Below are positions 81 through 31,316 of a DNA stretch of 32,110 nt, one piece after another. The stretch lies in IMG/VR virus record IMGVR_UViG_3300036791_001068, positions 1 through 32,110 of that record, one strand, 5' to 3'. How positions within the stretch are numbered: the stretch's first letter is position 1; each line of letters opens with the position of its first letter. The notes beneath the pieces are model-generated. The model did no database searches, was not told the DNA's origin, and worked only from the letters and a program-made list of their open reading frames with translations. This DNA comes from a virus. The position numbers were made by a program, and so were the translations under genes.

Positions 81-338
81 TTAAATTTGTAAATTTGATT
101 CATTTGAAAAAACTTTTTTGTAATTTCCTAAAACATTTTCTTTTAGTATTTCATCAATTGCTAATTCTATTGCAACTTCTTGATCAACTTCTGAAAGACT
201 TGTTGACAGCACTGTGATACGTGCCAGCATAGATGGTGTGTTATACCCATGCAATGAGTCGAACACAAACCATTCATTGAACTCAGTGAAAGGATCGTAA
301 GGATTGTCCATAGTTGTAAGCATCACACTATCTACCAT
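81..338 (-). CDS. Small conserved phage protein, function unknown
   Basis: This is an 85-residue acidic soluble protein. The start at 338 is chosen because AAAGGAG lies seven bases upstream; a TTG two codons earlier is open but poorly placed. The N-terminal half carries a TTMDNPYDPF motif followed by FNEWFVFD, and the C-terminal half is a likely helix rich in E and I. I recall short proteins with the pattern 'LTTxDNPYxPF..W..FD' in many gut and Gram-positive phages, without a known role. The start lies two bases past the stop of the RNA-polymerase-like gene, so the two are probably co-transcribed and translationally coupled. No membrane segment or cysteine motif is visible. Confidence 0.8.
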   Translation of the reverse strand: MVDSVMLTTMDNPYDPFTEFNEWFVFDSLHGYNTPSMLARITVLSTSLSEVDQEVAIELAIDEILKENVLGNYKKVFSNESNLQI

Positions 339-340
339 CT

Positions 341-2998
341 TCAATCTCCTTTCAATGCAGTGTCTAGTGTGGTCAGTGATACACCCAACTGTGCTGCTAT
401 CTCTGCTCTAGTGTACCCAGACGCACGCATGGAAGCAGCCCTACGTGTCTTAGCAGGTGTCATCTTGTACACGAACTTGGGCTCAGCATACTTACGTATG
501 ACCTCTATGTCTGTGTTAGTCAGTATCTGTTTAAGCATGTGATCACTGATAGCACCTGATTGAATAGCATCCCACTCTCTAGGTGTGATCTGTACCTGTG
601 CTTCCTTCTTGCTTGCACCCATACGAACACGAGCTTTCTCTAACGATTGAAACTTAATCTTTGTAATCGTTGATTCAGCAAGATTAGGATTAGCATCCCT
701 CTTGGCCTGGACCTCGGCATTCGCAATGACCTGGGCCTGTCTTTCACGAGGCCGGTTTTCTTGGGCTGCCCTTAATTTTGAGGCCAGGCTTTTGTATTCG
801 GGGGCGTATGTTTCTCTAGCAGAGGAGGAGTATTTAAGAGAGGGGGTCTTAACCATAGCTACACGTGAAGCATTAGCCAACGCCTTCAAATCATTGGAGT
901 GCTGCGCATAGATGGCCTCCATACGGGTACCTGATGACAGCTTGTGTGCATCATCAACAACAGCTAGCTGTTCAGTAGGTACTGTCTTTGGCGTACCCTT
1001 TGAAGTCTTTCTACCTGTCTCCACATAGACCAACTTACCAGTCTTTGGATCGATAGGCCCACCATCTTTAGCAGCACGGAGCTTCCTTTGATTAACCCAT
1101 ATTTCAGCTGTTGCTCTGGATAAAAGTGTGCTTGCTCCCTTCCCACTTTTACTAGCCTTCTGATACTCTGCCTGCAACTTTGGTATACCGTTGTCTATCG
1201 CAGACTTGCGGTAATCAAGGTTGTGATTCTCAGCATCAATGACTACCATGGAATGTCGAATGGCTTGAGCTATCTTACTTGGTGGTGCTCCATGAACAGT
1301 CATGTCTGTAATCAAGTTTGTTATACTACCCATCTCAATTTGTTTACGAGCGGGGGTAATTGGCACCATACCTGGATACGCTTTGTACAACTCCTGCGGA
1401 TCAAATCCCTTCAATCCTTCAAGGGCGGGGGTAGATTTAATTTTACCCCTATTGTTTGGAATGACAACAACCGTGTCTCCATCAAAGTCTGCACCAGACA
1501 AACGCTCCGCTACTGAGTGATGAATACCAACGGCATCCTGAGCTTGCCCGAGTAAACCTCGAGCTTCTTTATTTCTATTGTTAACAGTCAACTCGGGAAT
1601 CTCGAATGTTCCACCATGAGGATATCGAATCAAAACTACGCGTTCACCATTATTGTAATTTGGTGCATAGATTTCATCTGGCTTCATCGACGGTACCGGA
1701 AGAATTGTGTGCCATTGTTGACGAGCAGACAAAGCTGCAGCATCCATATGAACGGCAGAGGAATCTGTAGCTTCAGCGAACGCTTGAAGAAGATGTTTCT
1801 TTATCGTCGGATTTGTGAGAGACATGATTCTATTGAAGTCTTCGAGACGACGTTCATAGGTCATATGTAATTGCTCTAATGCAAGACTTGGGTTTTGCTT
1901 AGATAAGAACTGCGACGATAATTTCTTACTCCAATCGGCCCAATTTCCTTCTTCATTAACAATATTCATGGCAGAAATGTTACGCTCTTTCGGAGTTCCT
2001 TTATTTTCGAGTACCTGTCTAGTAACAGCACCAAACGGAAGATCTGGGTCTTCGCTCATTACCTTCATAGCATCGAGTTTGTTACCCGTACTACTTTTCT
2101 TTGTATTGAATTGAAGATCTACACCGGCTGGCATACCTTCTTTGTACATTGCCATACCTTTTAGGTAATGATTATCTCCGACTTGAACACGAACCTGCGC
2201 ATACATCTTACCACCGAGAGTAAGATCTTTCACACCAGGACGAATGAAGATCACTCCGTCAGCTTCACCACCACCTTGATCTTTGTAAATAATTCCAATA
2301 CGCTTAGGATTCACAGGAATCACATCATGAACATTTGCATAACTTCTACCACCACTATCAGAAAACTCTTGAATCTGCCTGATCTTATCCCTATTCTTAT
2401 AAACATCCCCCCTTGTTGTTCCAGGGGGGGTCAAAATTTTCATGTTAGTATCGTGCCTTGTCCCAAGCTGTGGCACCTTGACATTGGTATGTACTCGATA
2501 ACCCTCATCCTCGAGAATAGATACACTAGCCCGAAGCTTTTCTTTACTGATCTTAAGTTTAGCTTCTACTCCATCTCCAACATCAATGTAGGTTTTATTT
2601 GCAACCTCACGACGAAGCATATCAGATGTAGTGATAAGCACGTTCGATTTGTCTGCAGCTCCTGGCTTGAGAAGGGTTCTTACAACCGATTCGTTGATCC
2701 CCATCTCTTTTCCAATTGCAACATTCGACATCCCAGTATTCTTGAGTCTTTGCGCTTGTGAAATCTGCGACTGCTTTTTCGAAGCAGTAGCAAGAGTCCT
2801 GGTTGCACGAAGTTGAGATAAGGTGAGTCCCACTCCTTGTGCAATCTGGGCTTCATTGAGTCCTTGATTCTTCATGTCCTCAACATAATCAAAGAACCCT
2901 TTACTTCTTTGATCAACGTTTCCTCCACTGCCCCACGGGTATCGGCCTGAGCGTCGAAGAATTCCATAATGTAATAAATCATCTTCTTCGATAATCAC
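341..2998 (-). CDS. Putative single-chain two-barrel RNA polymerase (DFDGD type)
   Basis: The protein has 885 residues and a GTG start with AAAGGAGG seven bases upstream. Residues 501-513 read SGADFDGDTVVVI, matching the metal-binding NADFDGD loop of the beta' double-psi barrel of multisubunit RNA polymerases. About 225 residues earlier, LKGMAMYKEGMPAGVDLQFN (279-298) resembles the beta-subunit barrel, which has conserved lysines followed by 'MP..G.P.DI..NP'. Residues 457-470 (IRYPHGGTFEIPEL) sit where beta' has its 'NRaPTLHr' strand. Two helix-turn-helix-like segments lie near the N-terminus (about 46-70 and 84-112) and one ends the protein (857-885). The N-terminus has an HYGILRRSGRYPWGSG motif that I recall from other phage proteins. 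The layout is comparable to the YonO and crAss-phage gp66 single-chain polymerases, so a role in phage transcription is inferred. It overlaps the upstream nuclease stop by four bases. Confidence 0.72.
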   Translation of the reverse strand: MIIEEDDLLHYGILRRSGRYPWGSGGNVDQRSKGFFDYVEDMKNQGLNEAQIAQGVGLTLSQLRATRTLATASKKQSQISQAQRLKNTGMSNVAIGKEMGINESVVRTLLKPGAADKSNVLITTSDMLRREVANKTYIDVGDGVEAKLKISKEKLRASVSILEDEGYRVHTNVKVPQLGTRHDTNMKILTPPGTTRGDVYKNRDKIRQIQEFSDSGGRSYANVHDVIPVNPKRIGIIYKDQGGGEADGVIFIRPGVKDLTLGGKMYAQVRVQVGDNHYLKGMAMYKEGMPAGVDLQFNTKKSSTGNKLDAMKVMSEDPDLPFGAVTRQVLENKGTPKERNISAMNIVNEEGNWADWSKKLSSQFLSKQNPSLALEQLHMTYERRLEDFNRIMSLTNPTIKKHLLQAFAEATDSSAVHMDAAALSARQQWHTILPVPSMKPDEIYAPNYNNGERVVLIRYPHGGTFEIPELTVNNRNKEARGLLGQAQDAVGIHHSVAERLSGADFDGDTVVVIPNNRGKIKSTPALEGLKGFDPQELYKAYPGMVPITPARKQIEMGSITNLITDMTVHGAPPSKIAQAIRHSMVVIDAENHNLDYRKSAIDNGIPKLQAEYQKASKSGKGASTLLSRATAEIWVNQRKLRAAKDGGPIDPKTGKLVYVETGRKTSKGTPKTVPTEQLAVVDDAHKLSSGTRMEAIYAQHSNDLKALANASRVAMVKTPSLKYSSSARETYAPEYKSLASKLRAAQENRPRERQAQVIANAEVQAKRDANPNLAESTITKIKFQSLEKARVRMGASKKEAQVQITPREWDAIQSGAISDHMLKQILTNTDIEVIRKYAEPKFVYKMTPAKTRRAASMRASGYTRAEIAAQLGVSLTTLDTALKGD

Positions 2999-3552
2999 TG
3001 ATTGGCCTCCTTTATGGTCTCGATTTGTCTGTCAAAATCAATTATCACTTCCATAATTTGAGCGATTCTATCTGGGTGGGGTTCAAAAACTCGAATCTCA
3101 TCTCTCTGATAAATCCGAAGTTCAATTTCAATTGTGTAAGGATCTACACCATACTCAAGACAAAACAATGCTGCATAAACCTCAAGTTGCTTCTCTGATG
3201 TATGGGCTATTCCAGTTTTAAGATCGTGTATTCGAAGTTTGTTTCTCCTGAATGAAATACAATCGGCAGTTCCAAAACAATTCTCTGAATAGTAAAGTAC
3301 CTGTTCAGAGGTCATTTTATACGCTATAGCATCATTCACATAAGTTGATAATGCTAAATTCGATTTGGCAAGCTTTACTCCAAGACGGACTGCTTCTGTA
3401 GCAAGAGCGTGAATGTCTGAACCTCTTCTTGCTGCCATTGCAGTATGATAACGAGACTCCAATTTATCATCTGTATAATTCAACCAATGATAGTTGCTGG
3501 GGCTCAAAAAGGCGTGCTTATCTCTTAAGTCCGAATGCGAATTGAAGATCAT
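2995..3552 (-). CDS. PD-(D/E)XK nuclease, RecB/Cas4-like
   Basis: This 185-residue protein carries the core GTADCISFRRNKLRIHDLKT at about residues 94-113. It fits the RecB/Cas4-type nuclease pattern: G-x-x-D, a short hairpin, then D-x-K. A conserved-looking FLSPSNYHWLNYTDDKLE motif near the N-terminus and the QLEVYAALF helix (motif 'Q...YA') after the active site also match this group. Such phage nucleases act in recombination, end processing or host DNA degradation. The ATG at 3552 lies inside the preceding gene (35-base overlap) with only a weak ribosome binding site, so an in-frame start further in is possible. The gene's end overlaps the GTG of the RNA-polymerase-like gene. Confidence 0.75.
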   Translation of the reverse strand: MIFNSHSDLRDKHAFLSPSNYHWLNYTDDKLESRYHTAMAARRGSDIHALATEAVRLGVKLAKSNLALSTYVNDAIAYKMTSEQVLYYSENCFGTADCISFRRNKLRIHDLKTGIAHTSEKQLEVYAALFCLEYGVDPYTIEIELRIYQRDEIRVFEPHPDRIAQIMEVIIDFDRQIETIKEANQ

Positions 3553-3820
3553 CAAGCACCATCTCTTCTATGGCTGGATATATAATTGCACAAAACGACA
3601 TGGCGTTGAACAAATTTACATAATAATCTTGATTTGGTTGTATTTTAGCATTAGAAGAAAGTTTACATTCCAGCATTGCCCACCGGTCACCATAAAGAAT
3701 CAAGATATCAGGAATACCCTGGAAATCTGTTGGATCGGGCCTAAGTATGAATGAAGCTGGAAACATTTTTTTCAACTTCTCAACAAGTTTTCCCTGGTAA
3801 ACCACCTCATTTGGTGACAC
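3518..3820 (-). CDS. Small VRR-NUC-like / Holliday-junction-resolvase-like nuclease
   Basis: This 100-residue protein contains DFQGIPDILILYGDRWAMLE followed by CK, giving the G-x-PD, strand, E-x-K arrangement of minimal PD-(D/E)XK nucleases such as VRR-NUC domains. A GTG start at 3820 is preferred because GGAGG lies five bases upstream; the open frame extends four codons further to a TTG. It is the first gene downstream of a conserved promoter element at 3866-3891 and is followed by a second PD-(D/E)XK nuclease, with which it overlaps. It probably cuts branched or flapped DNA during replication or packaging; the substrate is inferred from family only. Confidence 0.72.
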   Translation of the reverse strand: MSPNEVVYQGKLVEKLKKMFPASFILRPDPTDFQGIPDILILYGDRWAMLECKLSSNAKIQPNQDYYVNLFNAMSFCAIIYPAIEEMVLDDLQFAFGLKR

Positions 3821-3865
3821 GGCCGCCTCCAAAATTTTAAAAAATCAAATATCGAGTTCTCCTTT

Positions 3866-3891
3866 CGTTACAATCCATGTATTTTTTACGA
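3866..3891 (-). promoter_or_regulatory. Conserved promoter-like element upstream of the nuclease operon
   Basis: On the minus strand this reads TCGTAAAAAATACATGGATT followed by GTAACG, a slightly diverged copy of the element found nine times in this window. The -10-like box is TGTAAC. It precedes the two nucleases and the RNA-polymerase-like gene, which run as one overlapping cluster. Confidence 0.6.
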
Positions 3892-3902
3892 CAATATACC
3901 CC

Positions 3903-7056: not shown

Positions 7057-7077
7057 TGCATGCTATTTCTTCTCATT
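7041..7077 (-). terminator. Promoter-proximal hairpin with T-rich tail (attenuator-like)
   Basis: On the minus strand AATGAGAAG (7077-7069) and CTTCTCATT (7056-7048) form a perfect nine-base stem with a 12-base loop, followed by TTTATTTT. The 5' arm overlaps the end of the promoter element, so the hairpin would form at the very start of the RNA. It could stop early transcripts or protect the 5' end. A second copy of this arrangement is at 16602-16658. Confidence 0.6.
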
Positions 7078-7100
7078 ATAATCCATGTATTTTATGCGAG
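7071..7100 (-). promoter_or_regulatory. Conserved promoter-like element, exact consensus copy
   Basis: On the minus strand: CTCGCA, five bases, then TACATGGATTATAATGAGA. It contains a perfect TATAAT. There is no TTGACA-like -35 box at the usual distance; the CTCGCA block ends 14 bases before TATAAT. It begins directly after the stop codon of the 7101 gene and points into the structured region ahead of the helicase. Confidence 0.72.
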
Positions 7101-12694: not shown

Positions 12695-13444
12695 TCATTC
12701 CATCCTAAACTTTCTAACACCATGTTGAGAATGTCTGATCTCTCTTTCTGCCGCTTCTTCAAGATCTACATCAAGGATCTCTTTCGAGAAGCTACCAGGA
12801 TCGAAGAGGATCTCGTATTCGGCCTTTCGTTCATCATTCCGAACATAGAAGACGTTTGGATCTTGTGAACCATGACCGAATCGAAGAGGACCGGTTATAG
12901 ACAAATAATTATAGACTGGAGTCTCTTCCTCGTCTGCCATTATGTCGTCACCAGAAAAATATGTCAAAGTTGACTGAGCATAATCCATACTATCCTCAAA
13001 GAACTCGTCTTTGTGAATTATAAACGGACGATCTGCTGTCCTTGATTCAATTTCAGTTTCGTAATTCCAATCACCATCATCACCAGCAAACAACGTTTGT
13101 GGAACGGAGTCTGGTTCTGGATCTGTATTTACCTCAACTACAATCTCTTCCACTCGAGTTACCATCACTGGTTTTCCATTTCGTACGTCTTTCTTTGGAA
13201 TACCAATTCCACGTTGAGCCTCCTGTTCAGATATAAATCTTTCCATTGCATCGTGATCGAATGGTAGTCTCTCTGGAATATCAAATCGGTTTCTTATCCG
13301 TCGAAGAGTGTTGTTTGTTTCCATTCGTTCTACTCTACGACCAGCAACAAAACCAACAAGAAATCCAACTCCAACCGATCCAATTCCCACAGCAATCGGA
13401 AGTGTAGCTTTATGCCTAAGAATCGCTTGTATATTTACTTGCAT
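12695..13444 (-). CDS. Membrane-anchored phage protein of unknown function
   Basis: This 249-residue protein has a glycine-rich hydrophobic segment at about 13-34 (ATLPIAVGIGSVGVGFLVGF) followed by GRRVER. It is probably a single anchor with an acidic cytoplasmic domain. The rest is rich in D and E with no recognised motif; YNYLSITGPLRFG and PNVFYVRNDERKAEYEILFD are the most structured-looking parts. GGAG precedes the ATG, and the gene overlaps the end of the upstream DUF6353-like gene by 10 bases. It belongs to a run of membrane proteins leading into the replication genes. Confidence 0.65.
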   Translation of the reverse strand: MQVNIQAILRHKATLPIAVGIGSVGVGFLVGFVAGRRVERMETNNTLRRIRNRFDIPERLPFDHDAMERFISEQEAQRGIGIPKKDVRNGKPVMVTRVEEIVVEVNTDPEPDSVPQTLFAGDDGDWNYETEIESRTADRPFIIHKDEFFEDSMDYAQSTLTYFSGDDIMADEEETPVYNYLSITGPLRFGHGSQDPNVFYVRNDERKAEYEILFDPGSFSKEILDVDLEEAAEREIRHSQHGVRKFRME

Positions 13445-14346
13445 TCCTTTTCTCCAATCAGGTGATATACAACACCATCAACGTTGAAGTCGATCAACAT
13501 ACAATGATCTTTTGATGGATATTTGTCTTTCGGATTCAACTCGAAGACAGAAAACTCAACATAACCATCTCCGTTGCCATTCTTTGCCCATCCGACGATA
13601 GAACCTTCTCTGGTTCGTGGAAGCCCGAGAGAATCATATGCATCATTCAAGAAATAATGACCTCTTGCTTTCAACATGTGATCAGCATGATTCTGAGCAA
13701 CTTCGACAAATCCACGATTCAGATTAGGATCTTCATACCAGTTTGGATTTGTCCATTCAAACATCCTGGCATATGTAGACAATGACTCAACCTCAGCTGG
13801 TCGAATTTCAGCTGGCTCTCCTTCTCCCAACGCTATACGACTGGCATACATACCCTTCGTATAGATCTCTTTCTCCTTTTCCTCTCCGACTTCTTGACGA
13901 ACTCTCTCACGATATTCGTTAAAGGCCTGCAACGCACTGACCAAAGTCAATGTAAGCGCAGTGTTACGCTTTGTCAATTGCACATGTGATCCAGTGAGTG
14001 CAAATATAGAAAGACCACCTACAACAAGGGCAGGGCCGTATAATTTCCCAAGTTTTACAGCACTCTTTCCATATACAAATGCAAGATCCCCCAAATGATC
14101 CTGCTCTGTATAAGACTTGCCGATTTGTTCGGCCGTCCTTTTTCTGTTTGTCTCAAGCTCGTTCACAGCCTCGAGATCCGTCTTGATACTGTCGAGGGTA
14201 TCTTCTATATTAAGAGTTGCTCGACAAGCTAGAACTGTGGCACCAACAGCTCCGACGATACCTACGGCAAAGAAAATGTGGGGGGAATTCTTTTTCGTCT
14301 GTAAAATTCTTCTTCCTACAAATCTGGTAATTTTATCGAAATTCAT
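13435..14346 (-). CDS. DUF6353-like phage membrane protein
   Basis: This 303-residue protein has two hydrophobic segments, about 22-40 (PHIFFAVGIVGAVGATVLA) and about 103-119 (GPALVVGGLSIFALTG). A charged stretch with EYRERVRQEVGEE lies near 145-157, and a long soluble C-terminal domain follows. The 'SPhIf.avGivGavgatvlAcrAT' opening matches what I recall of DUF6353, a phage membrane family of unknown function. The same layout and the EYRE-V-E motif recur in the protein at 15711-16442, so the two are paralogues. AAAGG lies six bases before the ATG. Confidence 0.72.
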   Translation of the reverse strand: MNFDKITRFVGRRILQTKKNSPHIFFAVGIVGAVGATVLACRATLNIEDTLDSIKTDLEAVNELETNRKRTAEQIGKSYTEQDHLGDLAFVYGKSAVKLGKLYGPALVVGGLSIFALTGSHVQLTKRNTALTLTLVSALQAFNEYRERVRQEVGEEKEKEIYTKGMYASRIALGEGEPAEIRPAEVESLSTYARMFEWTNPNWYEDPNLNRGFVEVAQNHADHMLKARGHYFLNDAYDSLGLPRTREGSIVGWAKNGNGDGYVEFSVFELNPKDKYPSKDHCMLIDFNVDGVVYHLIGEKECK

Positions 14347-15677: not shown

Positions 15678-15706
15678 TCTCATTATAATCCATGTATAAG
15701 TTGCGA
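15678..15706 (-). promoter_or_regulatory. Conserved promoter-like element
   Basis: On the minus strand: TCGCA, five bases, then TACATGGATTATAATGAGAG. It has a perfect TATAAT and sits in the gap between the stop of the DUF6353-like gene (15711) and the small membrane gene at 15665. Confidence 0.72.
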
Positions 15707-15710
15707 ATCC

Positions 15711-16442
15711 TCACAGAGGTTTGACGTAGTTATAGGAAAATGCTATGCACGGCTCGTCGTTTTCGGCCATCACCGTAGAGAACTCCAGTTTCAGCATCTT
15801 GTCAGAATCCCAACCAAATCTGGATGAATCCGATGTTGGTCGTACATCGATCAACTCATAGAATTCATCGAGAGTCACGTATCTTTCGATGAATATCTTT
15901 GCATTGATCTCATTCTCGGCTCTTCTGAGCTTGTCCATGTCACTTCTGAAATATCGCCCTGTGTACATCTCACAGCACATGACATGCCCATTACCAACGA
16001 CGATTACGTCTCCTAAACAAGGTGGATGCTCAGCAATCCTGTCTTTTGCAATCTCGTCCAGAACCTTTTGATCTTTTCCTTTCCCCAATTCGTCACTGAC
16101 CTTCTCACGATATTCAGTGAATGCTCTCTCTGTCAGAGAATATGCAGCCATAGCCGCCACTGCACGATTGTTACTGGCCTTGGAAGCGCATACAATACAT
16201 CCGATAGTTGCCGCTCCTGAGATAACGGCTGGGACATAGCATTTCCATATCAGCTTGATCTTTTCGTTGTTCGGTAGTTCCTCTCTATCCTCATCAATCA
16301 GAATATCCGCTGCCTGGAATGATCCTTTCGCTACGAAATATGACGTTGCTATCACTCCACCCACGCCAAGCGCAGTGAATATAACAGGCGAATTGGACTT
16401 AAGAAGTTTTACTGTGTTTCCAAATATGGTCTGAAGATCCAT
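15711..16442 (-). CDS. DUF6353-like phage membrane protein (second copy)
   Basis: This 243-residue protein has two hydrophobic segments, about 18-37 (SPVIFTALGVGGVIATSYFV) and about 68-86 (CYVPAVISGAATIGCIVCA). A TEYREKVSDELG motif lies near 110, and the C-terminal domain contains RRAENEINAKIFIERYVTLD and SRFGWDSDKMLKLEF. The layout parallels the protein at 13435-14346, including EYRE-V-E after the second segment. The ATG at 16442 is chosen because AGAAGG lies five bases upstream and the start overlaps the stop of the preceding 47-residue gene (TAATG). Its role in the membrane is unknown. Confidence 0.75.
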   Translation of the reverse strand: MDLQTIFGNTVKLLKSNSPVIFTALGVGGVIATSYFVAKGSFQAADILIDEDREELPNNEKIKLIWKCYVPAVISGAATIGCIVCASKASNNRAVAAMAAYSLTERAFTEYREKVSDELGKGKDQKVLDEIAKDRIAEHPPCLGDVIVVGNGHVMCCEMYTGRYFRSDMDKLRRAENEINAKIFIERYVTLDEFYELIDVRPTSDSSRFGWDSDKMLKLEFSTVMAENDEPCIAFSYNYVKPL

Positions 16443-16585
16443 TAGCGCCTTCTCATCTCCCTCACAAATATGTACACCAACCAAAGTCCACATGTCAGGA
16501 AGATCATGATCACATCTCCCAGAAAATTAAAGAATCCGTATCTTTTACGAATATGGACTCTGAAGGTATCAACATCAATTCTCAT
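16442..16585 (-). CDS. 47-residue single-pass membrane protein
   Basis: The ATG at 16585 follows GAGAGGAGAAAA. The protein has a basic, aromatic N-terminus (FRVHIRKRYGFFNF), a hydrophobic helix GDVIMIFLTCGLWLVYIFV (about 24-42) and ends REMRRR. Its TAA overlaps the ATG of the DUF6353-like gene, which strongly supports it as a real, co-translated gene. The leader carries the attenuator-like hairpin at 16602-16658. Function unknown; the small size and basic flanks resemble phage membrane effectors or holin-like helpers. Confidence 0.68.
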   Translation of the reverse strand: MRIDVDTFRVHIRKRYGFFNFLGDVIMIFLTCGLWLVYIFVREMRRR

Positions 16586-16601: not shown

Positions 16602-16658
16602 AAAAATAAAATGAGAAGATCGCAGCCTCATTGGGCCACGTTACTACCTCTTCTCATT
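16602..16658 (-). terminator. Promoter-proximal hairpin with T-rich tail (attenuator-like)
   Basis: On the minus strand AATGAGAAGA (16658-16649) pairs perfectly with TCTTCTCATT (16619-16610) across a 29-base loop, followed by TTATTTTTAA. It sits between the promoter element and the ribosome binding site of the 47-residue gene. It repeats the arrangement at 7041-7077 with a different loop. Confidence 0.6.
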
Positions 16659-16681
16659 ACAATCCATGTATTTCTTGCGAG
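16652..16681 (-). promoter_or_regulatory. Conserved promoter-like element
   Basis: On the minus strand: CTCGCA, five bases, TACATGGATTGTAATGAGA. The -10-like box is TGTAAT. It drives the two-gene unit made of the 47-residue membrane protein and the DUF6353-like protein, and directly follows the terminator at 16684-16714. Confidence 0.7.
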
Positions 16682-16864: not shown

Positions 16865-16884
16865 ATTATTCCCTTCATTAGTTG

Positions 16885-16912
16885 TCGTTATAACCAGTGT
16901 ATTTTTTGCGAG
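16885..16912 (-). promoter_or_regulatory. Conserved promoter-like element, diverged copy
   Basis: On the minus strand: CTCGCA, five bases, TACACTGGTTATAACGAC. The -10-like box is TATAAC. It is one of the less conserved of the nine copies. Confidence 0.62.
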
Positions 16913-17187: not shown

Positions 17188-17217
17188 TCTCATTATAATA
17201 CATGTAATTTATGCGAG
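17188..17217 (-). promoter_or_regulatory. Conserved promoter-like element
   Basis: On the minus strand: CTCGCA, five bases, TACATGTATTATAATGAGA, with a perfect TATAAT. It serves the 73-residue membrane protein gene. Confidence 0.72.
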
Positions 17218-17448: not shown

Positions 17449-17479
17449 TTCTCATTATAATACATGTAAAATATGCGAG
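17449..17479 (-). promoter_or_regulatory. Conserved promoter-like element
   Basis: On the minus strand: CTCGCA, five bases, TACATGTATTATAATGAGA, with a perfect TATAAT. It serves the 56-residue membrane protein gene. Confidence 0.72.
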
Positions 17480-17748: not shown

Positions 17749-17780
17749 CTCTCATTACAATCCGTGTAATTTATGCGAGA
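17749..17780 (-). promoter_or_regulatory. Conserved promoter-like element
   Basis: On the minus strand: CTCGCA, five bases, TACACGGATTGTAATGAGA. The -10-like box is TGTAAT. It serves the 68-residue membrane protein gene. Confidence 0.68.
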
Positions 17781-18361: not shown

Positions 18362-18391
18362 CTCTCATTATAACCCTTGTATGCTTTGCGA
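18362..18391 (-). promoter_or_regulatory. Conserved promoter-like element, diverged copy
   Basis: On the minus strand: ATCGCA, five bases, TACAAGGGTTATAATGAGA, with a perfect TATAAT. It starts right after the stop of the 18392 gene, the last gene of the structural run. Confidence 0.68.
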
Positions 18392-26315: not shown

Positions 26316-27287
26316 TTAACTCTCGAGGGTGTCTGAAATTCTATAAATATCCTGGTTGACATAAACAGCATTCGCGTTTTGAATCTCAAACATACCATCG
26401 TTATCGATTCCAATAAGAACGGAATGGTCAGTTGATGCAGTCCAAGTTCCATCCCCATTATCAATGATTTGAATAGATGGAGCATCCAAAATATCATCAG
26501 TGTTATCAATCAAAAACGTTACATCATCAAGATATATAGCATTAACATTAACAATATCGAATAAACCGTCTTCGTAAAAGTTAATAAAACCATCTCTTAA
26601 CGTAGTTGCCGTCCAAGTTCCATCCCCATTGTCAATAATCTTAACTCGATACCATTCATCCAATTTATCAACCAAATCTCCCATTGTTAGGAGAAAGGCA
26701 TCAGAAACAGAAGATCCATAAAGAATTTCTTCAATATCCTCGAGAAGAAATGGATCAATATTGCTAGAATTGACAATTATATGCGCAGTTGGGTGATAAC
26801 CAGAAATGTCCTCTGGAATAGCCGTAAGATGCCATTCAAATGTAGTAAGACTCAAATCTGCTGATACAGTATTTGATCCTCTATCTGATGGAATAGCCGT
26901 TAAATTGTAAATTAGATGAATTTTGTAGTTTGAAGAAGGGCCTTCAACGTCATTTCCGATTTGTGTTCTGTAACAAAGACTAAACAATTTTGGTGCTTGA
27001 TCTCCCATATAAACACCACGTCTCAAAGGAGTCAATCCCTCAATTTCCATGAATTCATCAGGATAAGTCATTGCTGACATAGTCGCTGAAAAACTCCCAA
27101 GAGAAACAAAATCGTTAATCTTTTTCCCATCGTAATAGATGGATTCTATTTCCTTGTCAAAACTTTCGGTAACAGAAATGAGCCCATTCCAAGGAACCGC
27201 CGAGCCATCAGGAAGATACAAAACACCTCTGTCTAAGCCAGTTTCATAGGTTCTTTCTCCTACTTTATCCCATTCCAAAACAGGCAT
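26316..27287 (-). CDS. Second tail-tube-like protein with duplicated C-terminal module
   Basis: The first 190 or so residues of this 323-residue protein align by eye with the major tail protein at 27856-28725. Shared features are 'LxWDxxGxRxYETGxDxGVLYxPD', 'TYPDEF', 'LCYRTQIGND' (versus 'LSYRTRYGND') and 'EEILYG'. The C-terminus differs: two consecutive modules of about 49 residues (about 214-262 and 272-320), each beginning with IIDNGDGTWTA and containing a 'D/NGLF/MFDIxNxNA' segment. AAAGGAG precedes the ATG. It is likely a variant tube or tube-associated surface protein. Confidence 0.82.
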   Translation of the reverse strand: MPVLEWDKVGERTYETGLDRGVLYLPDGSAVPWNGLISVTESFDKEIESIYYDGKKINDFVSLGSFSATMSAMTYPDEFMEIEGLTPLRRGVYMGDQAPKLFSLCYRTQIGNDVEGPSSNYKIHLIYNLTAIPSDRGSNTVSADLSLTTFEWHLTAIPEDISGYHPTAHIIVNSSNIDPFLLEDIEEILYGSSVSDAFLLTMGDLVDKLDEWYRVKIIDNGDGTWTATTLRDGFINFYEDGLFDIVNVNAIYLDDVTFLIDNTDDILDAPSIQIIDNGDGTWTASTDHSVLIGIDNDGMFEIQNANAVYVNQDIYRISDTLES

Positions 27288-27855: not shown

Positions 27856-28725
27856 CTAAGTAATGGTAAAGTACCAGTCAGTATCGGTTCCAGACTGAAT
27901 GACATAACCAGGATCTGGCCTGGAAGTAACCAGAGTGTTTGCACTAAGAACCATGTCCCCTGCAGGGGCTTCATCAGAACCAATGAAGTATTTAAGTCCA
28001 GCAACTGTCGGAATTGTCAAAGTATTTGTGCCAGCATCAAACGCAGGAGCTTGCGGTGTAACCGTTTGGGAACCGCTTTGGAAAAGTGTGATGACTTCGT
28101 CGGGATGTGGCAAGACAGGATTGACACCTTCACCACCATAGAGAATCTGCTCTAGTGCAGTAAGATCATCTGAAGAAACATCTGACGAATTTACAGTAAG
28201 GAGAGACGTTGGTCTCATCCCAGTCACCGCAACCGGATTCGTAGCAACACTCCAACTGAATGCAATTGCTGCTGGTGAATCGTTGATTGTCTGATAGGCC
28301 TTCTCAGATGGACTAGCAGTACAACCATAAAGGAGATGCAACTTGTAGCCATATGCCTCTCCTTCAATGTCATTTCCATACCTTGTTCGATAAGAAAGTC
28401 CGAACATCTTTCGAGGTTGCTGACCAACAGCGACACCAGGAATAGGTACGGCAAGACCATCATACTCTGCAAACTCATCCGGATAAGTAAATGCTTCAAC
28501 AGTTGCAGCAAATTCTTCAGCTGAGAATAGATTCAGATATTTGATGTTATCAGCATACTGTGCATTTGGTGAAGCGCCAGAAGGCGATTCTGTAACTGCA
28601 GTAAGTCCATTCCAAGCAACCCCGTCAACGTACACACCCTTTGAATCTGGCATGTACAACACACCATGATCGACACCGGTCTCATAGAATCGGTGTCCAA
28701 GTTCATCCCACACAAGCTTTGCCAT
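27856..28725 (-). CDS. Major tail tube protein
   Basis: This 289-residue protein has a tail-tube domain over about 1-205: KLVWDELGHRFYETGVDHGV, then WNGLTAVTES, EAFTYPDEFAEYDG, KMFGLSYRTRYGND and LLTVNSSDVSSDDL..LEQILYG. A C-terminal strand-rich domain of about 80 residues follows (TVTPQAPAFDAGTNTLTIP, TPGYVI-like DPGYVIQSGTD), probably displayed on the tube surface. This is the standard layout of Gram-positive siphovirus major tail proteins. GAAGGAG precedes the ATG. A paralogue with a different C-terminus lies two genes downstream. Confidence 0.88.
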   Translation of the reverse strand: MAKLVWDELGHRFYETGVDHGVLYMPDSKGVYVDGVAWNGLTAVTESPSGASPNAQYADNIKYLNLFSAEEFAATVEAFTYPDEFAEYDGLAVPIPGVAVGQQPRKMFGLSYRTRYGNDIEGEAYGYKLHLLYGCTASPSEKAYQTINDSPAAIAFSWSVATNPVAVTGMRPTSLLTVNSSDVSSDDLTALEQILYGGEGVNPVLPHPDEVITLFQSGSQTVTPQAPAFDAGTNTLTIPTVAGLKYFIGSDEAPAGDMVLSANTLVTSRPDPGYVIQSGTDTDWYFTIT

Positions 28726-29369: not shown

Positions 29370-31316
29370 TTATTCAGTCTTTTCCCTAGAAGTTTCCTTC
29401 TTTGAGGAAGCACCCTCAGTAGTCCCGCCACTTGCGTCTGGGAGAGAGCCGTGAACTGGAGGAACACTCTGTCGAGCATTAGGCGGCTCAGGAACAATAA
29501 TATGCACAGTTCCAGCTGGCGGAGCGACGAACGTTCCTTGCTTGACGACCATGGCGGACTTCATCTTCACCAACGCTCCAGAACACCGACCCTCGATCAG
29601 GTACTTGTACTGGTTGTAGTCGATGTCAAAGTCATCGAACAAATTGACCTCTCCGCCCTTGTCGGAACCGAGGACGTAGTCAGTCATATTGACAATAACA
29701 GCCAATGGAGGGTTGGCTCCTGGATCGAAGACGTCGACAGGAATGATCGAGGAAACCCGAATCTCTGATGCGAACTGATCCAGAGAAGTGTAGATGCGTC
29801 GACCCAATGTGTCCTTCAGCAACATGACCTGAGCAATGAATTGCTCACTCGTGTACATGGCTGGAGTTCCAGTTCCACGATATAGAGCCCGATACTGAAC
29901 GATGGCATCAACAACATCCTGAACACCATTGGCAGCAAAGTCAGCCAGAACCTCAATCGTGAACAGAGGGTCATCAGTAGCGATCGGGCGGATACGATCC
30001 TCCAGAATCTTTTCTGAACTCGCGACATCGCGTCCATCACCAATGAGAATGGCACGAGCGATCTCCTCATCGAGCATGAGCCTCATCTCACTCTTCATCC
30101 ACGCCACGACATCGAAGTCGGTGATGTCGATAATGTCATCACGATCCAACTTTTGCATTTTGTAGATAGTTTGTGGCATGGTTTCCCGCCTGGAAGTCGA
30201 GAAGAACTGCTCCTTCTTCACATCCCCAGTGATGTAACCCTTTGCTCGAGCATCGTCGTACGTGAGGTCTGCAAAGTGAGTCTTCACACGAGCAAACGGA
30301 GACTTTCGAGCACCACCCAACACGGTGTTTACCCACTCGGTCCGACGAGTGTAGAACTCCGGAGCCGATGTGAGGGCCTGAGCCTCAGGGAACAGAGTGT
30401 CGATCTGATTGATCCCGTGCGCAAGCGCATAGGCCTCTGTGGCCTGCTTCAACGATCCACACTTGGTAGCGTCGGCGACGATACCTTTCATGTCCTCATG
30501 AGAAAGAGTTTCCCCTCCCTTCTTGTCCTTGTCGTCGCCTTCAAAGATGTTGTGCTTCATTTTATCGCCTTTCTCAGTGTCGGGAAGTTCTCCATCGTGT
30601 TGAAGAGCTTCGCCAATCATGTGGTGAAGCACCTTCTTCTGCTTTTCGTCCAATGATTCGTAAGCTTCCTGCAGCTCCTCAGGAATAGCGGATTGAGCGA
30701 CATTGTCTCCACCACCCTGTTCAAGCGCCATGCCAACCATGTAATGCAAAACCTGCTGTTGCTCTGGATTCATCGAATCGTATACATCTTGCACCGTCTT
30801 ACCGGTATCACCAGAAGGAGCTGGCGGAGGAGTTCCACCACCATTTGCGTGCTCGAACGAAAGACCGGTGTAAATGATAGCCTCGTCCTCGAGAACGCTC
30901 ATATCATCGTCAGAGTGACGAATTGTGACGTTTTCGATGAGAGCACCTGGATTTGCACCAGAAAGAACAAGGCTGACTTCACGAATAGCTCCATGAAGAA
31001 CCTTCTTCGACCTCTCAATGAGATCATTCGCCCAAATAGACATCATCGTAATGTCTTTGTGCTGAATCAACCCATGAGTATGAACTGCCTTTGGTGAATC
31101 GTTGAAAAATCCGTAGGCATAAACGCCTTCGTCACGGTTTTCAAGAATTGCATGTCCAAGCACGTTCTCTGGATCACTGTGTCCATGCTGCCAAACAAGC
31201 GGAACCTTCATAGTATCCTGATGCTTAAAGGCATCTGGCATGATGGTCCGTCCATCGGAGCATTTAAGCCCGGCCTTAGTGGCCCAGCCATCGAAATCTG
31301 CTTCCATTTTGACCAT
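29370..31316 (-). CDS. Capsid maturation protease (S78) fused to scaffold and major capsid protein
   Basis: The 648-residue protein has an S78-type prohead protease at about 1-140: catalytic histidine in KVPLVWQHGH (about 37-46) and serine in IREVSLVLSGANPGA (about 111-125). A scaffold-like linker (about 150-255) contains a duplicated helix, YDSMNPEQQQVLHYMVGMAL and YESLDEKQKKVLHHMIGEAL. The HK97-fold capsid domain follows (about 270-610), with WVNTVLGGARKSPFARVKTH, KLDRDDIIDITDFDVVAWMK and FDIDYNQYKYLIEGRCSGAL. A P/S/T/E-rich tail ends it. The protease would cleave itself and the scaffold off after assembly. An ATG at 31307 is better spaced from AAAGGA than the one at 31316. Confidence 0.9.
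   Translation of the reverse strand: MVKMEADFDGWATKAGLKCSDGRTIMPDAFKHQDTMKVPLVWQHGHSDPENVLGHAILENRDEGVYAYGFFNDSPKAVHTHGLIQHKDITMMSIWANDLIERSKKVLHGAIREVSLVLSGANPGALIENVTIRHSDDDMSVLEDEAIIYTGLSFEHANGGGTPPPAPSGDTGKTVQDVYDSMNPEQQQVLHYMVGMALEQGGGDNVAQSAIPEELQEAYESLDEKQKKVLHHMIGEALQHDGELPDTEKGDKMKHNIFEGDDKDKKGGETLSHEDMKGIVADATKCGSLKQATEAYALAHGINQIDTLFPEAQALTSAPEFYTRRTEWVNTVLGGARKSPFARVKTHFADLTYDDARAKGYITGDVKKEQFFSTSRRETMPQTIYKMQKLDRDDIIDITDFDVVAWMKSEMRLMLDEEIARAILIGDGRDVASSEKILEDRIRPIATDDPLFTIEVLADFAANGVQDVVDAIVQYRALYRGTGTPAMYTSEQFIAQVMLLKDTLGRRIYTSLDQFASEIRVSSIIPVDVFDPGANPPLAVIVNMTDYVLGSDKGGEVNLFDDFDIDYNQYKYLIEGRCSGALVKMKSAMVVKQGTFVAPPAGTVHIIVPEPPNARQSVPPVHGSLPDASGGTTEGASSKKETSREKTE

Follow-up and report, generated by a model that had tools for sequence, protein, structure and literature searches.

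A putative single-chain two-barrel RNA polymerase, its N-terminal tag and a promoter-like motif in a siphophage lineage

The window analyzed here, the whole 32,110-nucleotide stretch of IMG/VR virus record IMGVR_UViG_3300036791_001068, carries an open reading frame that, judging from sequence and predicted fold together, almost certainly encodes a single-chain RNA polymerase with two double-psi barrels (Table 1). The 885-residue frame named in a preliminary description of this DNA does exist, and lies on the minus strand. By its sequence, the protein is a member of a family already catalogued as PHROG 4291, and the novelty therefore lies in its N-terminal tag and in a promoter-like motif that accompanies it, not in the protein family. 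Together these features lead us to a tentative proposal, to which we give slightly less than even credence, for a siphophage lineage with hosts from Streptomyces to gut Clostridia: a polymerase packaged by way of its tag would read a three-box promoter independently of host sigma factors, and the same tag would be common to a set of effector-like proteins.

The polymerase family and its predicted core

The PHROG 4291 profile, labelled “RNA-dependent RNA polymerase,” matches the window protein over essentially its full length (1206.7 bits, residues 3–884 of 885), and homologues in GenBank are named either “RNA-dependent RNA polymerase” or “helix-turn-helix DNA-binding domain protein.” Family members in actinophages, Lactococcus phage 1706 and Faecalibacterium phage oengus share with the window protein full-length homology, a near-universal N-terminal tag and a position at the end of the genome; we see no essential difference between them and the window protein, and found no experiment behind the RNA-dependent label. 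By tblastn, 250 of 50,697 phage records contain the polymerase, at 37–55% identity, and in 249 the alignment covers 80% or more of its length; the hosts are Arthrobacter, Gordonia, Streptomyces, Lactococcus, Curtobacterium, Rhodococcus, Microbacterium and Faecalibacterium. A genome scan with the single window protein as query returned no relative; the polymerase profile recovered 80 loci, mostly in Clostridia, and the enzyme is also found in prophages and on genome contigs of many gut Clostridia. The closest relative of the window is a 43-kb genome, G001, with 67–79% DNA identity in the main aligned blocks.

The polymerase gene overlaps at its start the stop of the upstream exonuclease gene, and a Shine-Dalgarno sequence, GGAGG, lies at 3010–3006, eight bases 5' of the GTG. 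Elsewhere in the window, one 648-aa open reading frame (29370–31316) matches both head maturation protease and major-head-protein profiles, so that these two proteins appear, from sequence, to be fused. Two major tail protein genes, both PHROG 2645, are found at 26316–27287 and 27856–28725, and two frames of PHROG 2152, of unknown function, at 13435–14346 and 15711–16493.

Table 1. Features of the window discussed in the text
Feature	Positions	Strand	Remarks
Single-chain two-barrel RNA polymerase candidate	341..2998	minus	885 aa, GTG start
Exonuclease (phrog_3953), upstream in polymerase operon	2995..3555	minus	PHROG profile match
Endonuclease (phrog_93; VRR-Nuc in HotFries), first gene of polymerase operon	3518..3832	minus	
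phrog_4303 gene, last of contig, directly after polymerase	81..344	minus	87 aa
N-terminal tag, residues 1–28 (DLLHYGILRRSGRYPWGSGG)	2915..2998	minus	predicted disordered, near-invariant
N-terminal helix-turn-helix region, residues 35–110	2669..2896	minus	phrog_3855 E 1.6e-11, AlphaFold model
Predicted first (beta-like) barrel strand region, residues 247–301	2096..2260	minus	invariant K280-G
Predicted second (beta'-like) barrel, residues 425–515	1454..1726	minus	R458-x-P-H-G-x-F-E-I
DFDGD putative catalytic metal loop, residues 504–508	1475..1489	minus	
Two long helices after second barrel, residues 549–592	1223..1354	minus	bridge-helix position; presumptive role
C-terminal helix-turn-helix, residues 848–883	350..457	minus	sigma region 4-like
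Weak promoter-like motif copy before polymerase operon	3861..3892	minus	28.1 bits; shuffles at most 9.1
Promoter-like motif	7071..7099	minus	exact
Promoter-like motif	15678..15706	minus	exact
Promoter-like motif	16652..16680	minus	1 mismatch; after terminator-like hairpin
Promoter-like motif	16883..16911	minus	2 mismatches
Promoter-like motif	17188..17216	minus	exact; after terminator-like site 17252–17224
Promoter-like motif	17450..17478	minus	exact; after terminator-like site 17518–17487
Promoter-like motif	17750..17778	minus	1 mismatch
Promoter-like motif	18363..18391	minus	exact

The sequence elements on which the polymerase call was originally based are located as claimed, in the order beta-like and then beta'-like barrel: K280-G-M...GMPAGVD spans residues 279–295, R458-Y-P-H residues 458–461 and the DFDGD loop residues 504–508. 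Because D504, D506, D508, K280, K312, R458, P460 and H461 are invariant in 49 of 49 relatives (~38–72% identity to the window protein), and again in 71 of 71 core sequences, chance cannot account for these putative catalytic residues.

Structure prediction upholds the two-barrel assignment. An AlphaFold model of the full-length protein (pLDDT 80.6, pTM 0.62) finds as its fold matches QDE-1 (E 3e-8), Thermus phage gp64/gp62 (1e-6) and plant RDR2. A second model, of the core alone (residues 225–625) and based on 71 sequences, improves greatly on this (pLDDT 91.1, pTM 0.83), and all 50 of its PDB matches at E<0.001 are two-barrel polymerases, with QDE-1 at 1e-11, Thermus phage gp64/gp62 at 2e-9 and plant RDR2 at 2e-8, followed by beta'/RPB1-type subunits; against QDE-1 the TM-score reaches up to 0.55. 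QDE-1 and RDR2 are eukaryotic RNA-silencing enzymes that differ from the window protein in having no tag, and share ~12% sequence identity with it. The gp66 protein of crAss-like phage phi14:2, a far larger protein with which structural kinship had been anticipated, is absent from the reported matches of the predicted fold. It was fold comparison alone that linked the polymerase to those of the PDB, where a sequence search with either the single protein or a profile found nothing beyond helix-turn-helix matches and a weak phage beta' match.

The proposed likeness to YonO of phage SPbeta holds for the catalytic segment and fails for full-length family membership. Both proteins are single chains of similar size with a DxDGD loop, R-x-P-H and G-x-x-S-N-x-I-T, and alignment pairs K280-G of the window polymerase with YonO PWVKG (HHalign), R458-x-P-H with RSPH, MGxxSNLITDM with IGxxSNNIT (profile alignment) and DFDGD with DNDGD. 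The catalytic-segment profile scores 27.8 against YonO (P 0.0016), as compared with 10–16 for ten control pairings. The phrog_8308 profile, the YonO family, matches the window protein, but only at residues 436–515 (E 0.0011), and whole-profile HHalign gives a probability of 1.9%. YonO is set apart by its lack of the tag and of any significant full-length alignment. For the Thermus gp64 family a single locus was recovered, too few for a profile. YonO itself is a proven DNA-dependent RNA polymerase that requires its catalytic aspartates (PMC5467207), and the window enzyme very probably likewise makes RNA from DNA.

In several SPbeta-like phages (L195, L197–L199, L206–L212, L242), the YonO match stops at residue 625 or spreads over 300–1400 extra bases, as if the yonO gene were interrupted by an intron or insertion. 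Within the window family, the polymerase matches in G051, G059, G080, G082 and G085 break in two between about residues 545 and 665, with no stop codons there, which suggests that in some phages this loop holds inserted segments.

The helix-turn-helix segments suspected at both ends appear, from profile matches and predicted structure, to be real. Residues 849–882 match Sigma70_r4_2 (E 1.8e-5, just under the Pfam cut-off) and also HTH_23, residues 79–110 match HTH_38 (E 0.0014) and phrog_3855, and the AlphaFold model places helix triplets at both segments.

A promoter-like motif of the polymerase lineage

Between the tail and replication genes of the window, a 32-bp repeat precedes small genes, often after a terminator-like hairpin. 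The pattern TCGCA-N4-WTACA-N5-TATART-GAGA has eight matches in the window with at most two mismatches, all on the gene strand, where 0.00 are expected. The weak copy before the polymerase operon recurs, also at 3861, in the relative G001. In the lineage at large the motif takes the form TCGCA-N4-WTACA-N5-TATAAT-GAGA, on one strand before presumed early genes, and the same architecture is seen in Gordonia, Streptomyces, Rhodococcus and Lactococcus phages. We found no description of it in the literature, and a TATAATGAGA-type string is in no phage paper among the matches listed. A T7-like promoter was considered and rejected: the motif resembles the T7 consensus only superficially, and none of the window proteins searched was recognized as a T7-type polymerase.

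The motif is specific to the lineage. At least 119 stretches of IMG/VR match it with exact spacing; lengthening both spacers by one leaves no match there. Among 50 motif-bearing contigs, 49 belong to the phage lineage of the polymerase (33 hold the polymerase gene itself, and a further 16 the DNA polymerase or TerL of the lineage), one is unassigned, and the copies counted per contig all lie on one strand. Conversely, 30 of 45 records selected for their polymerase carry the core motif, with 166 copies as against three for the reversed pattern, and with one copy on the minority strand. The copies precede a ribosome-binding site and start in 45 of 52 cases (six genomes), usually by ~24 nt. In four annotated genomes none of 33 copies falls within the head/tail/lysis block; 32 occupy the interval from the block to the gene for DNA polymerase or, in ReqiPoco6, the part examined after the block. 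The place and content of the motif-bearing genes suggest that they are early.

Five genomes without the core motif carry variants that retain CGC and middle boxes at similar spacing, as aligned by eye. The TATAAT-like -10 element present in most genomes is replaced by CTTTAT in oengus, TTAGAT in G026 and TTTTAT in G037, and G012 and G030, the latter the loosest fit, keep TATAGT/TATAAT with a changed middle box. In the polymerase tree, oengus, G037 and G029 form one group with support of 100/99. Where sigma-70 recognition would call for it, 16–18 bp before TATAAT, no TTGACA-like hexamer is conserved in the motif copies, a check for which columns were counted as far as 4 nt before the core and longer flanks were read.

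The N-terminal tag and DUF7211

Few parts of the polymerase are as strongly conserved as its first 28 residues (HYG..r.SGRYPWGSG). The strict tag is present in 67 of 79 polymerases on genome contigs, with a variant in most of the remainder. In a pattern scan of viral contigs, the open reading frames with GRYPWG[ST]G are, among the matches listed, nearly all polymerases, but some are not: one such frame lies between TerL and portal (L112), and several tag-bearing frames follow TerL in L079. Thirteen short frames have in common with the polymerases essentially only their first 22–56 residues, mostly at 55–82% identity (E down to 6e-12); to read these as “RNAP” is wrong, the alignments being driven by the tag alone. 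The bodies of tag-bearing non-polymerase frames instead include a GNAT, a toxin-like papain-fold glutamine deamidase and a P-loop protein (L280:3066–3809; L079:157–702; L276:2269–3297; L287:10007–10798), which are candidates for head-carried proteins delivered to the host. An HMM of the polymerase tag recovers 19 non-polymerase frames at E<3e-5 among 10,170, and its next matches are mostly frames with DUF7211 (HYGVKGMKWG).

DUF7211 (Pfam PF23847) resembles the tag in being a short peptide, of 25 positions, near the N-terminus or after the first domain, in genes beside TerL. The polymerase form, HYG..R.SGRYPWGSG, differs from it, and the window polymerase has no match to PF23847 over the Pfam cut-off. 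Over 45 polymerase-bearing records, the DUF7211 profile finds 99 copies above cut-off in 35 records, its sub-threshold matches including 11 polymerase N-termini; where TerL was found, 94 of 98 copies lie within 5 kb of it. G001 has two DUF7211 frames directly before TerL, and DUF7211-like frames also lie in the flanks of polymerases on genome contigs. A 31-aa DUF7211 query finds 244 phage records, with a host tally almost that of the polymerase. In the open literature searched, no paper names HYGVKGMKWG or DUF7211. As for tag subtypes of polymerase and cargo within one genome, just one contig (G047) has both.

In Lactococcus phage 1706, orf7, with two DUF7211 copies, is recorded as a structural protein. 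The polymerase of this phage, orf75, is not so labelled, though the record labels several proteins in this way. The same record lists as structural two small proteins outside the head/tail block and without the tag, orf62 and orf71 (L175:45052–45330 and 49658–50011), a designation that fits packaged non-structural cargo.

As read from these sequences, the tag is a modular peptide, the same on unrelated proteins of the head gene cluster. In phage T4, a short N-terminal capsid-targeting sequence sends diverse proteins, the internal proteins and Alt, into the head. By analogy only with these short head-sending peptides, the tag may be a targeting peptide for the phage head.

Possible promoter use and packaging, and known systems

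In the model that we favor, the polymerase would bind DNA with its helix-turn-helix domains at both ends and would initiate, without a host sigma factor, at TCGCA-N4-WTACA-N5-TATAAT-GAGA before early genes. Its disordered N-terminal tag would mark it for packaging into the phage head, and the packaged enzyme would enter the cell with the DNA and start early transcription; late genes, being without the motif, would fall to a different polymerase, probably that of the host. The reasoning is that an enzyme on which the earliest genes depend has to arrive with the virion, as does gp96 of Thermus phage P23-45 (PMC10770324). That the enzyme uses the lineage motif as its promoter is suggested by their association, and we lean modestly toward this; virion packaging we hold to be evenly balanced, and to the model as a whole, a two-barrel RNA polymerase packaged via its tag and transcribing early genes from the lineage motif, we would give an even chance. 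The association supports, though only indirectly, the earlier proposal that the enzyme transcribes phage genes. Because one lineage carries both motif and polymerase, their association does not amount to recognition, and their co-occurrence could be merely a consequence of that shared descent.

This last point is one ground for supposing that host RNA polymerase, or some other DNA-binding protein of the phage, reads the motif, and that the two-barrel enzyme transcribes other genes. TATAAT or TATAGT, found in most copies and in most genomes compatible with host sigma-A, and the hairpins with T tracts that precede many copies, typical for host RNA polymerase, point the same way. Yet no conserved -35 hexamer lies 17 bp upstream, the spacing stays the same in hosts ranging from Streptomyces to Lactococcus, the -10 element is lost in some clades in which the CGC box and spacing persist, and the two (C/T)TTTAT genomes have polymerases in that single well-supported group, all of which makes host reading, to our minds, unlikely. 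It is also conceivable, if somewhat doubtful, that the polymerase does use the motif but is a product of the infected cell and never packaged, its tag serving recruitment to a phage complex or proteolytic control. Such synthesis during infection would fit the placement of the gene in an operon with exonuclease and endonuclease genes behind a weak motif copy, as well as the status of orf75 in the phage 1706 record. Against it, the other proteins that bear the tag are encoded near TerL and portal, and one of these has a structural label in its record; moreover, the motif-driven genes look early, so that the polymerase would be needed at once.

A true RNA-dependent RNA polymerase, as PHROG 4291 and GenBank name it and as its best structural matches, QDE-1 and plant RDR2, might suggest, seems to us very improbable. 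QDE-1 also takes DNA templates (PDB entries 7y7r and 7y7s), the same superfamily includes, in YonO and the Thermus phage enzymes, DNA-dependent RNA polymerases (PMC5467207, PMC10770324), and a helix-turn-helix domain at each end speaks for double-stranded DNA.

The favored model, with early transcription by a packaged two-barrel enzyme, can be set beside the systems already studied. YonO, the nearest tested enzyme, transcribes late and not early genes, which counts against what is proposed here, and its study did not establish a promoter sequence (PMC5467207); the lineage motif does not rise above chance in the SPbeta yon region. In P23-45, the non-virion gp64, whose fold matches the window core, and gp96 are each directed by phage-specific motifs, and gp96 is a virion RNA polymerase that acts on pre-early genes (PMC10770324). 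Packaging of gp96 is by fusion to the tape measure, whereas the window polymerase would rely on a short N-terminal tag, and we found no promoter motif common to P23-45 and the window lineage. Although gp64 is an experimentally characterized RNA polymerase, its gene (L180:35290–37140) is still labelled “head protein” in both GenBank and PHROG 25317. As for phi14:2, gp66 is given as a single-chain two-barrel virion RNA polymerase in the passage of PMC10770324 that cites Drobysheva 2021, and its sequence record notes MS/MS proteomics; the part of the phi14:2 genome examined contains no lineage motif. If the model holds, the window polymerase acts in the manner of the virion polymerases of Thermus and crAss-like phages.

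It has been proposed that single-chain two-barrel polymerases are related to the ancestor from which all cellular RNA polymerases descend. Here, a candidate promoter conserved over many hosts accompanies one family of such enzymes, and because it is found in cultivated phages, from soil, initiation by a single-chain two-barrel enzyme becomes directly testable. The common tag, in turn, gives a way to study how enzymes may be loaded into phage heads, and from sequence alone it predicts further proteins that may be packaged, among them the GNAT, deamidase and P-loop proteins.
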